Of a DNA stretch of 36,839 nucleotides, positions 26,564-36,839 are shown piece after piece. Under the pieces are notes generated by a model. It saw nothing but the letters and a program-made list of their open reading frames with translations, ran no database searches and had not been told where the DNA came from. The first letter of the stretch is position 1; every line of letters begins with the position of its first letter. Source of the DNA: Anaerolineae bacterium (GTDB lineage Bacteria; Chloroflexota; Anaerolineae; Anaerolineales; Villigracilaceae); the NCBI GenBank assembly GCA_018648685.1, contig JABGQT010000125.1, positions 1 to 36,839 on the forward strand, written 5' to 3'. Position numbers and translations under genes: made by a program.

Positions 26564-27082
26564 AAGCAAACGAAGTCCGTTTAAATAAAGATGCCCTTCC
26601 AATAAATACAAACAGGAGTTTTCACCTGTACCACTGTATTTTCCTTGTGGCGCACGTTACCGCACGCTTTTCAGAGCATACTTTCTTTGGAAGGGAGAAG
26701 GGAGTTTGTGATCAAACTCCAAAGGCATCCGCTGATCTATCCGATTTTTTCCTGCATTTGCAGGATTAGCGCGTCCCTCGCGGGACGGAACCTTCACCTC
26801 GTAATCCCATGGTTTCGCGTTTGTCGAAACACGGGACCCAGCCGCTGGTTCTCCGTTATTCAGTTGTTAAACCCGATAAAGGGTAACCCCGCCGAAGCCG
26901 TGTGCCGCTATGTTTTGAACCTGCTTTCACAGGTGGGTCCTTACCGCAGAACTTTCGCCTTGGCTCAGGCCTATCGCGTAATCTCTGAGAGATCAGAACC
27001 CTTCATACAATTGTTGGTACAAAACTTTGAGTGCGACATCACCTGCATAGCAGGGTTAAGCACTTTATACCATAAAGTTTTG
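26534..27082 (-). ncRNA. Candidate large structured non-coding RNA (about 550 nt), family unknown
   Basis: There is no minus-strand ORF here, but there is a dense series of helices. On the minus strand: CAAAACTTT/AAAGTTTTG (27082-27074 with 27028-27020) enclosing AGTGC/GCACT and CCTGC/GCAGG. Next come ATCTC/GAGAT (26993-26981) and ACCTG/CAGGT with a GAAA loop (26934-26919). A C-UUCG-G loop lies near 26895. A 12-bp stem with one bulge spans 26836-26805, and CGTCCC/GGGACG with a GCGA loop spans 26787-26772. GGAGTTTG/CAAACTCC (26720-26701) and AAATACA/TGTATTT (26641-26604) follow. A long-range 9-bp helix joins 26729-26721 to 26598-26590. The GNRA and UUCG loops exist only on this strand. It ends in an intrinsic terminator. 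It does not show RNase P, tmRNA, SRP or rRNA signatures. No promoter is recognised. Confidence 0.6.
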
Positions 27083-27615: not shown

Positions 27616-28956
27616 TTAAGGATAAACCCTCTTTATCGTCCTCGGGAAGGGTATCGTCTCCCGAATATGATCTGTGCCACAGATCCAGGCGACGGTGCGT
27701 TCGATGCCCATCCCGAAGCCTGAGTGCGGAACGGAGCCGTATTTGCGCAGCTCGAGATACCATTTGAAGGATTCTTCGGGCAGCCCGTGTTCGTGGAGGC
27801 GTTGGAGGAGCAGGTCAGGGTCAGACATACGTTCGGAACCGCCGGTGATCTCGCCGTAGCCTTCGGGAGCGAGCAAGTCTACACTTTTGCAGGCTTCAGG
27901 GCGACCGGGCATCGGTTCCATGTAGAAGGCTTTGACTTGGGTGGGGTAGCCATAAACGAAGAGGGGTTTGTCGAATTGTTGGGTCAGGACTGTTTCGTGG
28001 CGTGCGCCAAAGTCCATGCCCCATTCGATCTCGAGGAAGGCTTTTTCTTCGGGATCTTCTGTTTGAGCCTGAATTTCTTTAATCATCTCGACGGCTTTAT
28101 CGTAAGTGATGCGGGGGAATTCTCCATTCACTTTTTCGAGGGCAGAGATGTCTCGTCCCAGTGATTCGAGTTCGGGGCGATTCTTTTCAAGCACTTTTTT
28201 GACGATATGACTGACAAATTGCTCTTCGACATTCATCAACTCGTCGAGGTCGCAGAAAGCCATTTCGGGTTCGACCATCCAGAACTCGGTCAGGTGACGG
28301 CGGGTTTTGGATTTCTCGGCACGGAAGGTAGGACCAAAACAGTAGACCTTGCCAAAGGCGAAGATATTGGCTTCGTTATATAGCTGTCCGGTTTGCGCGA
28401 GATAAGCTTTGCCTTCGTCGAAATATTCGGTTTCAAAAAGCGTTGTGGTTCCTTCGGCTGCAGCGGGGGTCAGGATGGGGGTGTCTACCAGGGTGAAACC
28501 GTTATCATCGAGCCATTCACGGATGGCGGAGATTACCGTCGCACGGATGCGCAAAATTGCCCATTGGCTGGGCATTCGCAGCCAGAAGTGGCGGTTATCC
28601 AGCGCAAAGTCGGCACCATGTTCTTTTAACGCCATCGGATAATCGTCGGCGGCTGATTGGATGATGCTGAGGGCGCTGATCCCCAGTTCGTAGCCGCCGG
28701 GCAAGCCCGGGGCACGGTCGTCTTTCCGTACGGTTCCTGTGATGACGACCGATGATTCTTGCGGAATCCGCTTGATGGTTTCGAAGACTTCCTCGTCCAA
28801 ATCCCCTTTAAAAGCAACACATTGTGCAAAACCCGAGCCATCACGGAGGAGCAAAAATGAGAGTTTGCCCTTGCCCGTGCGCTTATAAACCCATCCCTGG
28901 ATGGTGACTTCCTCGCCCTCGTGGGCGTGAAGGTCTTTGATTCTGGTAATTGTCAT
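27616..28956 (-). CDS. asnS: Asparagine--tRNA ligase
   Basis: A 446-residue class IIb synthetase that charges tRNA-Asn. It has an N-terminal OB-fold anticodon-binding domain (~1-110), then the catalytic core with motif 2 FGPTFRAEKSKTRRHLTEF and motif 3 GFGMGIERTVAWICG. The ATP and asparagine pocket lies around QTGQLYNE and FWMVEPEMAF. It is downstream of aspS (47 nt gap with a palindromic repeat), so both probably share the Asn-rich leader and promoter at 30980-31091. Confidence 0.96.
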   Translation of the reverse strand: MTITRIKDLHAHEGEEVTIQGWVYKRTGKGKLSFLLLRDGSGFAQCVAFKGDLDEEVFETIKRIPQESSVVITGTVRKDDRAPGLPGGYELGISALSIIQSAADDYPMALKEHGADFALDNRHFWLRMPSQWAILRIRATVISAIREWLDDNGFTLVDTPILTPAAAEGTTTLFETEYFDEGKAYLAQTGQLYNEANIFAFGKVYCFGPTFRAEKSKTRRHLTEFWMVEPEMAFCDLDELMNVEEQFVSHIVKKVLEKNRPELESLGRDISALEKVNGEFPRITYDKAVEMIKEIQAQTEDPEEKAFLEIEWGMDFGARHETVLTQQFDKPLFVYGYPTQVKAFYMEPMPGRPEACKSVDLLAPEGYGEITGGSERMSDPDLLLQRLHEHGLPEESFKWYLELRKYGSVPHSGFGMGIERTVAWICGTDHIRETIPFPRTIKRVYP

Positions 28957-29003: not shown

Positions 29004-30770
29004 TTATTCTTTGATGTCAATATGTAATTCTACCAGTTGCTGATCTTCCACTGGCGAGGGGGCATCCCCCATTACGTCGCGGGCGTTTTGGTTTTTCGGG
29101 AAGGCAATTACTTCACGAATATTGGGGGCGTCGGCGAGGAGCATCACGAGGCGATCCATGCCGATGGCGATGCCGCCGTGCGGGGGCGCGCCATAAGTGA
29201 AGGCTTCGAGCATGTGTCCGAAACGCTCTTTTGCCACATCGGGGTCGAGACCGATCAGCTTGAAAACCTGCTCCTGCAACTCACCGTTATGAATACGGAT
29301 AGAGCCGCCGCCGATCTCGTAATTATTCAGCACAAGGTCATATTGCTGCCCACGCACCTTCGCCGTGTCACTCTCGAGCATGGGAATATCTTCGACCATC
29401 GGGGAGGTGAAAAGGTGATGGGATGGGTCCCAGCGCTCTTCGTTTTTGTTCCAGAAAACAAAGGGGAATTCGGTCACCCAGCAGAAGCCGAGGACCTTGG
29501 GATCACGCAGATTTAGGAGGTCGGCGACATGCACACGCAATTTCCCGAGCGCATCGAACGTGGTTTCGGCTTGGTCGGCGACAAAGAGCAGAAGATCGCC
29601 ACTTTGGGCATCTAGCCGTTTAATGAGCGCATCCTGAACATCTTCCGTTAAGAATTTTGCAAAAGATGAACGCATCTGTCCATCGCTGGTGAGCGCAATA
29701 TAAGCAAGACCTTTCGCCTTGCTATTTTCTTTAACATAAGCCGTGAGCGCATCAATCTTCTTGCGGGAGTAATCGCCCAAACCTTTGGCGTTGATAGCAC
29801 GGACTTCACCGCCAGAAGCAATTGCGCCTTCAAAAACGCCAAAGCCACATTCAGCAACAATATCGCCAACGTTGACAAGCTCCAGCCCAAAGCGGATGTC
29901 GGGATTGTCTTTACCGAAGCGTTCCATTGATTCTTGATAAGTAATGCGAGGCCAGGGCGTTTGGAAAACTTTCTTTTCGGGAGTCACTTTCTCAACCAAA
30001 GCCGTGAACATGCCCTCGGCGAGAGAGATCACATCGTCACGCTCGACGAAAGACATCTCAAGGTCAAGCTGCGTGAACTCAGGCTGACGGTCGCCACGCT
30101 GATCTTCATCACGGAAACAGCGAGCGATCTGGAAATAACGCTCCACGCTGGCGACCATGAGCATCTGCTTCAACTGCTGCGGCGATTGCGGCAACGCATA
30201 AAACTGCCCGGGATGCACACGGGAGGGGACGAGATAATCTCGTGCGCCTTCGGGCGTGGTCTTGAAGAGAATGGGGGTCTCCACTTCAAGAAAGCGGTCT
30301 TCATCGAGATAGTCTCGGATGAACTTCGTCGTTTTGTGACGCAATTCGATATTGTGGCGCATGGTCTCACGGCGCAGATCAAGATAACGGTATTTCAGAC
30401 GGAGGTGCTCATCTACTTCTTCATCTTTGTTGATGAGGATAGGCAGCATTTTGGCTTTATTCAAAACCTTGACTTCTTTCACATCCACTTCGATCTCGCC
30501 TGTGCAAAGGTTGGGATTTTCAGCGCCTTCGACGCGCTTGCGGACTTCACCCGTCACCTGCAAGACCCACTCAGAACGAGCGGCCTTCAGCGGAGCGAGA
30601 TCGGCATTCACTTCGACGTTCCCAACGATCTGGGTCATCCCGAAACGGTCGCGCAAGTCAATAAAGGTCACACCGCCGTGATTACGAAAATTATGTACCC
30701 AGCCAGCGAGCGTGATCGTCTCGCCGATATGAGATGGGCGTAATTCGCCGCAAGAATGAGTTTTGTACAT
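29004..30770 (-). CDS. aspS: Aspartate--tRNA ligase, bacterial type
   Basis: A 588-residue class IIb synthetase. It has an OB-fold anticodon-binding domain (~1-105), motif 1 around [18 protein letters not shown], motif 2 [20 protein letters not shown], the bacterial GAD insertion (~285-410) and motif 3 [13 protein letters not shown]. The length is that of bacterial AspRS. Because asnS lies next to it, Asn-tRNA can be made directly and a transamidation route is not required, though tRNA specificity cannot be read from sequence. GGAGG precedes ATG 30770. The leader (30771-31076) holds a leader ORF and hairpins. Confidence 0.97.
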
Positions 30771-30790
30771 GAGTTCCTCCGATATTTAGC

Positions 30791-30891
30791 TCACCACAGA
30801 GACACAAAGGGCACAAAGTTTTTTCTTTGTGGACACAGAGAAAACCTTTGTGAACTCTGTGACGCCTGTGCCCTTCAGGGCATTGTGGTGA
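30791..30891. repeat. Branched palindromic element in the aspS leader
   Basis: The ends TCACCACA (30791-30798) and TGTGGTGA (30884-30891) pair. Inside are CACAAAG/CTTTGTG, CTCTGTG/CACAGAG and GCCC-TGAA-GGGC. The sequence style is that of dispersed CACAGAGACACA-type intergenic repeats. It lies between the attenuator hairpin and aspS. Confidence 0.6.
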
Positions 30892-30907
30892 AAATAGTCC
30901 TTATAAT

Positions 30908-30941
30908 GAAAATCGCCCTTAGCTTTCTCAGCTTTGGGCGA
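30908..30941 (-). terminator. Attenuator-like terminator hairpin upstream of aspS
   Basis: On the minus strand TCGCCC (30941-30936) pairs with GGGCGA (30918-30913), and an inner AGCT/AGCT stem follows a 2x2 mismatch. TTTT comes after. The 5' arm can instead pair with an identical GGGCGA at 30988-30983, the last sense codons of the leader ORF. The U tract is short. Confidence 0.6.
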
Positions 30942-30979
30942 AGGGTGTCTCGAAAATGAATTCGTTACTCAGGCAAGTT

Positions 30980-31063
30980 TTATCGCCCGTCCCATCGCCA
31001 GATGGTCGAATTATCATTATCGTTATTATTATTGTTGTTGTAGACGTTGTTTTTGAAGGTCAT
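30980..31063 (-). CDS. Asn-rich leader peptide of the aspS-asnS operon
   Basis: A 27-codon ORF with ATG at 31063, a Shine-Dalgarno TTGGAGC five bases upstream and stop at 30980-30982. Ten of 27 residues are Asn and three are Asp. The core is NNNNNNDNDN (codons 9-18) and it ends WRWDGR. It starts about 13 nt after the predicted transcription start and is followed by a terminator-like hairpin. A peptide this rich in the amino acids of the two downstream synthetases is the hallmark of ribosome-mediated attenuation, as in pheM-pheST of E. coli. Translation is inferred, not shown. Confidence 0.75.
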   Translation of the reverse strand: MTFKNNVYNNNNNNDNDNSTIWRWDGR

Positions 31064-31082
31064 TTTTGCTCCAATGGGCGGT

Positions 31083-31091
31083 ATTATAGCA
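31083..31091 (-). promoter_or_regulatory. Extended -10 promoter for the aspS-asnS leader
   Basis: On the minus strand TGC-TATAAT (31091-31083), a consensus extended -10. The -35 is weak (TTCTCT near 31111-31106). The predicted start near 31076 gives a ~13-nt untranslated stretch before the leader ORF. Confidence 0.7.
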
Positions 31092-36786: not shown

Positions 36787-36839
36787 GCGGGAGTCGCCAA
36801 GTGGTAAGGCATCAGCCTTCCAAGCTGACATTCGCGGGT
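36787..36839 (+). tRNA. tRNA-Gly(TCC), 3' end cut by the window
   Basis: The acceptor strand GCGGGAG, a D-arm with GCC-AAGTGGTAA-GGC and anticodon stem TCAGC/GCTGA with loop CTTCCAA give anticodon TCC at 36819-36821, reading GGA/GGG. The variable region and the start of the T-arm follow, and then the window ends. Confidence 0.92.

Follow-up and report, generated by a model that had tools for sequence, protein, structure and literature searches.

A probable leader-peptide attenuator reading Asn and Asp codons upstream of aspS-asnS in Anaerolineae

The region upstream of aspS

The window analysed here is a stretch of 36,839 nucleotides from an Anaerolineae bacterium (contig JABGQT010000125.1). 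On its reverse strand lies aspS, followed by asnS, which begins 47 nt past the aspS stop codon (Table 1). Upstream of aspS are an extended -10 sequence, a Shine-Dalgarno sequence and an ORF of 27 codons, 10 of them for Asn and 3 for Asp. All of these had been reported in a first-pass annotation and have been confirmed, with their coordinates, on the - strand; the same holds for the GGGCGA at the end of the leader (30988-30983) and for the terminator (TCGCCC, 30941-30936; GGGCGA, 30918-30913; then TTTT).

Table 1. Features of the aspS leader region and the genes downstream, in positions of the window
Feature	Position	Strand	Basis or remark
Extended -10 TGC.TATAAT, leader promoter	31083..31091	-	sequence; TG.TATAAT pattern in relatives
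Shine-Dalgarno GGAG for leader ORF	31069..31072	-	predicted transcription start ~31076, 5' UTR ~13 nt
Leader ORF MTFKNNVYNNNNNNDNDNSTIWRWDGR, 27 codons, ATG at 31063	30980..31063	-	10 Asn + 3 Asp
Putative regulatory Asn/Asp codon block, codons 9-18	31010..31039	-	sequence; block codons of relatives
AAUUCG, closes attenuated fold in window genus	31007..31012	-	pairs with CGAAUU 30964-30959
Segment 1, CCAUC, 5' arm of 1:2 hairpin	31001..31005	-	compensatory changes in genus
Segment 2, GGCGAUGGG, predicted antiterminator 5' strand	30991..30999	-	minimum-energy fold of RNA before segment 4
GAUGG, 3' arm of 1:2 hairpin, within segment 2	30992..30996	-	
CGGGCGA, 5' arm of stop-codon hairpin, contains the antiterminator strand first proposed	30983..30989	-	
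Leader ORF stop codon	30982-30980	-	
UUGCCUG, 3' arm of stop-codon hairpin	30970..30976	-	
CGAAUU	30959..30964	-	partner of 31012-31007
Segment 3, predicted antiterminator 3' strand, CCCUUCGCC	30937..30945	-	
Terminator hairpin 3:4, UCGCCC...GGGCGA	30913..30941	-	folding; relatives
Short U tract of terminator	30909..30912	-	sequence
aspS, aspartate--tRNA ligase	29004..30770	-	TIGR00459, 725 bits, cut-off 374
asnS, asparagine--tRNA ligase	27616..28956	-	TIGR00457, 467 bits, cut-off 343

None of 100 dinucleotide shuffles of the surrounding 400 nt reaches the Asn density of the leader ORF (p 0.01). It is also exceptional within its own genome, where TGNTATAAT with an ATG 4-22 nt downstream occurs at 36 places, 30 of which were retrieved and 28 of which have a readable ORF. 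Among these 28, the aspS leader stands out with 10 Asn among 27 codons; the runner-up among the short ORFs has 3 among 25. At several of the other places, an ATG 6-8 nt downstream of the extended -10 starts a long ORF, so that leaderless mRNAs look common in this genome.

Competing RNA structures in the window and its genus

Folding of the window RNA yields two different structures, depending on how much of it has been made. When the RNA past the Asn block is folded before segment 4, it contains the antiterminator GGCGA.GGG/CCC.UCGCC (-28.7), which joins segments 2 and 3; the full RNA forms the 1:2 hairpin plus the terminator (-35.4). The terminator hairpin has an energy of -16.5 kcal/mol (z -3.3). 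A simple terminator scan of the window did not list it; the stem contains an internal loop and the U tract is short, a feature that had been flagged as a weak point of the element.

It had originally been postulated that the GGGCGA at the leader end pairs directly with the 5' arm of the terminator, making a three-segment device that lacks a protecting 1:2 hairpin. GGGCGA is indeed able to pair with UCGCCC, and in other genera the GGGCGA core belongs to segment 2. However, the window fold before segment 4 favours GGCGAUGGG instead, and in both window folds GGGCGA is held by UUGCCUG of the stop-codon hairpin. Furthermore, compensatory changes back a 1:2 hairpin in the window genus, where sisters have CCGAC/GUCGG and CCAAC/GUUGG in place of the CCAUC/GAUGG of the window. 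Rival hairpins are predicted, as first proposed, but the protecting 1:2 hairpin had been missed, and a device built of three segments is unlikely.

In the eight sequences of the window genus, the 1:2, AAUUCG/CGAAUU and stop-codon helices together have 95.1% of their cells paired and 7 both-side changes. None of 500 shuffles is as high on paired cells, both-side cells or covariation score; 96/500 are as high on pairs with changes and 468/500 on pair types. The 2:3 duplex is weak in this genus. Taken alone, that of the window is not significant, with 9% of mononucleotide shuffles as good, and across the eight members 5-65% of shuffles do as well.

Conservation of the structures across the family

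For most family members, the 5' part of the coding sequence, up to TTCGCC ("FAN" codons), forms segment 1; segment 2 is GTTGGGCGAAG at the ORF end, segment 3 is TCGCCC[A/G]ACG and segment 4 is GGGCGATTT. The helices were evaluated on 51 of 55 distinct fragments (set A2), which leaves out L019, L026, L031, L119 and every locus scored as having no segment 2, because the segment-2 regular expression missed divergent loci. A terminator search over 330 nt took unrelated hairpins at several loci and was replaced by one restricted to 150 nt from the leader stop.

The 3:4 helix has 98.8% of cells paired in the 51 sequences and 9 cells changed on both sides; on four measures none of 500 shuffles reaches it, and for a fifth, pair types, 233/500 do. 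For the 2:3 helix, 92.3% of cells are paired (18/500 shuffles as high), compared with 22-45% for slid versions, and there are 7 both-side-changed cells (17/500), a modest covariation; it is no better than shuffles for pairs with both-side changes or for pair types. Locus by locus, the 2:3 duplex falls among the best 5% of shuffles at 56/84. Outside the window genus the 1:2 helix is kept, with 96.6% pairing, and a search for covariation there found no both-side change. In addition, four leaders (L149, L182, L187, L188) read the nucleotides of segment 2 in another frame, giving RWAKPC or RWAQPC where others have VGRSLAG. The RNA and the Asn codons are thus kept and the end of the peptide is free to change, a result that speaks against a nascent-peptide sensor.

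A crude ribosome-block folding was carried out on 77 leaders, seven of the 84 having been dropped when the terminator or ORF call was judged wrong. Before segment 4, at least five expected 2:3 pairs are obtained in 75/77 leaders with a ribosome in the middle of the block and in 50/77 without a ribosome; with the ribosome at the stop codon, none of the 77 reaches this number, which is true by construction. For full-length RNA at equilibrium, 3:4 is favoured in most leaders whatever the state of the ribosome, the median number of 3:4 pairs being 9.6 mid-block and 10.7 at the stop (9.6 and 9.7 for the window). If so, the choice between the structures must be kinetic and would be made during transcription. 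Such a co-transcriptional choice is the accepted view for attenuators of this kind.

Occurrence among relatives

Loci of aspS were drawn from genomes of the same genus, family, order, class and phylum and from named records. Those read are a part of the matches, since AspS was found in 131/150 family, 129/150 class and 81/91 phylum genomes; some genomes contribute two aspS loci, and L033-L035, whose rank is not known, were counted in the order list. A leader qualified when an ORF after a -10 had two or more Asn codons and a total of four or more for Asn plus Asp. The first-pass annotation had proposed that related genomes be searched for an Asn-rich ORF or hairpin at this position, and its idea survived the comparison: an Asn/Asp leader qualifies at 68/74 aspS loci of the family, 15/25 of the order and 1/56 of the rest of the class. 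By shuffles, p is at or below 0.05 in 52/74 family loci versus 3/73 outgroup loci (L039-L111). The leader is also present in Chloroflexota bacterium M_MetaBat.120, Anaerolineae bacterium G519 and Anaerolineaceae bacterium X2_MetaBAT.10.

Of 23 additional phylum-level loci (L262-L284), two (L266, L268) duplicate family loci and carry the leader, two more lie in the class, and at the remaining 19, all outside the class, it is not evident. Six family loci do not qualify (L031, L115, L118, L162, L164, L194); L194 encodes a partial AspS and L115 has one Asn pair. Ten of the 25 order loci fail the rule as well. Below the cut-off in one class family are four loci (L134, L136, L137, L139) whose leaders contain a single Asn pair behind an extended -10, as well as L131, which has DDNDN and lacks a consensus -10.

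Several individual loci deserve mention. At L031 (G019), the leader (-185 to -95 relative to aspS) has retained its position and RNA motifs, and Lys-Lys-Thr stands where the congener L117 has Asn-Asn-Asp; this is possibly a case of sensor loss. At L118 (G024), about -190 from aspS, NDDDN occurs at the leader start and the ORF has no stop before the terminator. Two genomes carry two AspS genes each (L172/L173 in G022; L178/L179 in G065), and every one of these genes has its own, differing Asn/Asp leader. Leaders of several families (L227 of G229, L030, L196, L026, L137) have in common an (I/L/V)VD stretch ahead of their Asn codons, hinting at shared descent across orders.

Codon content and start of the leaders

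To what extent Asn and Asp are enriched can be judged from a rule that ignores codon content and takes the first ATG 4-25 nt past a TG.TATAAT if it opens an ORF of 10-60 codons. It gave 78 ORFs from the 155 loci examined. In these ORFs Asn accounts for 20.1% and Asp for 10.0% of residues, with Lys at 1.8% and Glu at 0.7%; 76/78 have at least 2 Asn and 66/78 at least 3. A small control of 13 reverse-strand ORFs behind a looser -10 gave Asn 5.1% and Asp 4.0%. In 81 distinct aspS leaders there are 444 AAY versus 38 AAR codons and 225 GAY versus 15 GAR; these leaders were chosen for Asn/Asp, a choice that favours N and D and not a low number of AAR or GAR. The Asn codons of the blocks are of both kinds (AAT 268, AAC 133), and the length and order of the block vary among relatives.

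The distance from the -10 to the start codon is bimodal: 12 nt or less in 66/84 leaders, 16-23 nt in 13/84 and greater in 5/84. Of the 13 leaders spaced at 16-23 nt, 12 have a GGAG, GAGG or AGGA in the 16 nt preceding the start, the sole exception being L193, whose start was probably misassigned by the rule; no such sequence lies between the -10 and the start in any of the 66 leaders with short spacing. Given a predicted start site about 7 nt past the -10, these 66 would be leaderless or nearly so, and thus most of the leader ORFs look leaderless. The window leader, with its Shine-Dalgarno sequence, is a member of the small 16-23-nt group.

The two routes to Asn-tRNA

The gene asnS stands behind aspS in many relatives and in all eight genus members with an aspS found (none was found in the genus member G004). 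The genome of the window, G010 and G014 have asnS and no gatB match. In 18/34 genomes asnS falls below its cut-off, one of these (G057) carrying asnS in two pieces, and all 18 have gatB above its cut-off. In several genomes without asnS, the Asn/Asp leader nevertheless persists on aspS (L017, L020, L023, L026, L113, L116, L117, L119, L156). AspRS can also supply Asn-tRNA by the GatCAB route, and a leader on aspS in the absence of asnS would fit such a role. Downstream of aspS in G016 come gatC and gatA, and gatB and asnS both lie no more than 8 kb away.

Nine asnS genes on contigs other than that of aspS have no such leader, indicating that the device goes with aspS and not with asnS as such. 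The first reading, which centred on Asn, is refined accordingly: the aspS leaders have retained Asp codons as well as Asn codons, and aspS is the gene with which the device travels. Upstream of gatB (10 loci from nine genomes without asnS), neither TG.TATAAT nor a convincing leader was found, the densest ORF lying at -2521 in L253.

A covariance model and the association with asnA

A covariance model, R1, was made from 29 of 34 prepared leader sequences, none of them from the window genus. It matches 97/120 family genomes at E <=0.01, a count that is a lower bound because the unmatched genomes include the eleven listed genomes of genus g12 and two of five of g17, whose leaders are divergent. 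In the genome of the window it has a single match, 30907-31063 (E 8.5e-6). Over 199 class genomes, R1 found ten family members plus one weak match (E 0.007) and is thus a family-level model. Weak off-target matches in G011, G015 and G022 resemble, on reading, plain terminators and were rejected.

At E <=1e-4, R1 matches lie directly before aspS, save for two that are unplaced at contig ends (G116, G073) and seven that precede asnA, the gene for aspartate--ammonia ligase. G060, which is absent from the AspS list, has on reading an aspS after its match. The seven asnA matches (G082, G115, G107, G097, G068, G118, G088) have E values of 8e-20 to 6e-5, and asnA was detected in 7/150 family genomes, precisely these seven. 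In genus g7 (L337, L338, L339), asnA and aspS stand in tandem, each with its own attenuator.

The codons of the leaders differ with the gene downstream, being Asn plus Asp at aspS/asnS and mainly Asn at asnA. Asp contributes 6 of the 56 Asn plus Asp codons of the asnA leaders, the other 50 being Asn, versus 225/669 over the 81 leaders of aspS (Fisher p 2.6e-4; Mann-Whitney by leader, p 2.3e-4, the related leaders not being independent in either test). Asp is absent from 4/7 asnA leaders and from 0/81 aspS leaders, and two asnA leaders have an aspS-like share (0.25, 0.30). The first-pass reading of the element as a tRNA-charging attenuator is thus supported both by the conserved leader in relatives and by the recurrence of the attenuator upstream of asnA in each of the seven family genomes where that gene was found; the asnA association is the strongest independent support for it.

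Other explanations

Some leader peptides, such as TnaC and those of the Erm type, themselves arrest the ribosome, and the Asn run might be an arrest sequence responding to a small molecule rather than a tRNA sensor. The recurrence of a C-terminal VGRS.AG in many leaders would suit this idea. However, no conserved arrest peptide sequence of the TnaC/Erm type was found: the block varies in length and order as well as in its synonymous codons, the C-terminus is in another frame in the four leaders named above, and the codon content follows the controlled gene. Given all of these findings, an arrest peptide is very unlikely.

T-boxes have been reported at some Firmicutes aspS and asnS genes and, in Dehalococcoides, a member of the Chloroflexi, at ileS and trp genes (passages of PMC2494555), which would allow a T-box or another known riboswitch to sense tRNA or a metabolite directly, the ORF being incidental. 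Rfam, however, has no match at gathering score in the leader region, a lax search there gave two chance-like matches only (E 1 and 2.8), and the attenuators of five relatives gave no match up to E 0.1. A T-box fold was thus rejected by the covariance model searches, and a riboswitch of this sort is highly improbable. The same low probability attaches to a small functional protein gene with an ordinary terminator, unrelated to aspS control; the ORF does have a promoter, a start site and a terminator downstream, but the element is tied to aspS and asnA across genera, the 3' end of the ORF pairs with the terminator arm in a pairing that is kept, and the C-terminus shifts frame in four leaders.

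Proposed mechanism

Taken together, these results make it very probable that the element belongs to the classical ribosome-mediated transcription attenuators, that translation of its leader peptide gauges how well tRNA-Asn and tRNA-Asp are charged, and that it most likely turns aspS-asnS on when either charged tRNA is scarce. The sequences show the ORF with its codons, the competing pairings and how they are conserved, and the tie to aspS and asnA, whereas the start site, the stalling, the kinetic choice between 2:3 and 3:4 and the direction of the response are inferred. Transcription would begin just upstream of the leader ORF. When both charged tRNAs are plentiful, the leading ribosome would reach the leader stop codon and cover segment 2; the 3:4 terminator would then form, keeping aspS-asnS low. 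When either is short, the ribosome would stall in the Asn/Asp block and mask segment 1, so that segment 2 could pair with segment 3 ahead of the synthesis of segment 4. Once 2:3 has formed, RNA polymerase would read through to aspS and asnS. With no ribosome, the 1:2 hairpin would tend to hold the terminator on.

A broader hypothesis, held with less assurance and yet judged probable, is that this attenuator family constitutes a small regulon in the Anaerolineae. In this model, the aspS members read tRNA-Asn and tRNA-Asp jointly, also where AsnRS is lacking and the leader would report the output of AspRS plus GatCAB; the asnA members read mainly tRNA-Asn; and in most members the ribosome loads on a leaderless 5' end. 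If this is true, the sensing ribosome would in most members start once the RNA leaves the polymerase, and such leaderless leader ORFs raise the question of how the first ribosome loads on these attenuators. Should the attenuator act as proposed, it would also provide a translation-sensed switch for a large, mostly uncultured group, the Chloroflexota, would show leader codons fitted to the controlled gene, and would make testable how cells monitor the AsnRS and transamidation routes to Asn-tRNA.

Relation to known systems

The trp, his and pheST systems of E. coli are the classical ribosome-mediated amino-acid attenuators. Like them, the present element has a short leader ORF in which cognate codons form runs and whose predicted start looks usable, an intrinsic terminator between the leader and the first gene (with a short U tract in the window), mutually exclusive 2:3 pairing (weak in the window genus, of modest covariation and disfavoured against 3:4 at equilibrium), a protecting 1:2 hairpin that includes leader coding sequence, and a synthetase or biosynthetic gene downstream. 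Unlike them, it has Asn and Asp codons, its host belongs to the Chloroflexota and most leader ORFs start within 12 nt of the -10, as leaderless mRNAs do. The leader of the thr operon is bivalent, having Thr and Ile codons; the present leaders likewise have codons for two related amino acids, here Asn and Asp, the ratio moving to Asn at asnA.

Outside the Proteobacteria, leader-peptide attenuation of synthetase and biosynthetic genes has been described for trp, trpS, leuS, ilvB and cys in Actinobacteria (passages of PMC1262725) and for hisS/hisZ in Bacillus (passages of PMC2965389), cases that resemble the present one. As of 2010, according to passages of the latter source, none was known outside Proteobacteria and Actinobacteria save the Firmicutes case described there and the atypical ermC. 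The main texts of both papers contain no term starting with "asparag". An aspS of Shewanella has been entered with a "tRNA synthetase leader", its specificity not being given in the passages concerned (PMC2659441). The transamidation operon of Clostridium acetobutylicum has a two-codon T-box (Saad 2013, as cited in part of PMC4052509). There, too, one upstream element serves two tRNAs, including tRNA-Asn, and controls a route of Asn charging; however, it is a riboswitch that binds tRNA directly, its tRNAs are tRNA-Asn and tRNA-Glu, and it has no leader peptide. Among the papers listed from the literature searched, as judged by titles and the beginnings of abstracts, there was neither an Asn- or Asp-reading leader peptide nor a ribosome-mediated attenuator in Chloroflexota, and the attenuator survey of Lopatovskaya 2010 could hold a precedent. 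What would be new, relative to that literature, is the Asn/Asp specificity of a predicted attenuator and its occurrence in Chloroflexota.

Neighbourhood of the element

Between the terminator and aspS, the window has an insert with a CTTTGTG/CACAAAG inverted repeat (30780-30900, -), and some relatives have other repeat-like inserts in the same spot, as if it were an insertion hot spot. A tRNA gene at 36787-36839 (+) is cut by the end of the window and contig. Downstream of asnS lies a 6S RNA (Rfam RF00013, 76.9 bits; 26882-27059, -). In the relative G016, a 6S RNA likewise lies right behind asnS (L236, 10316-10491), so that this part of the neighbourhood may be conserved.
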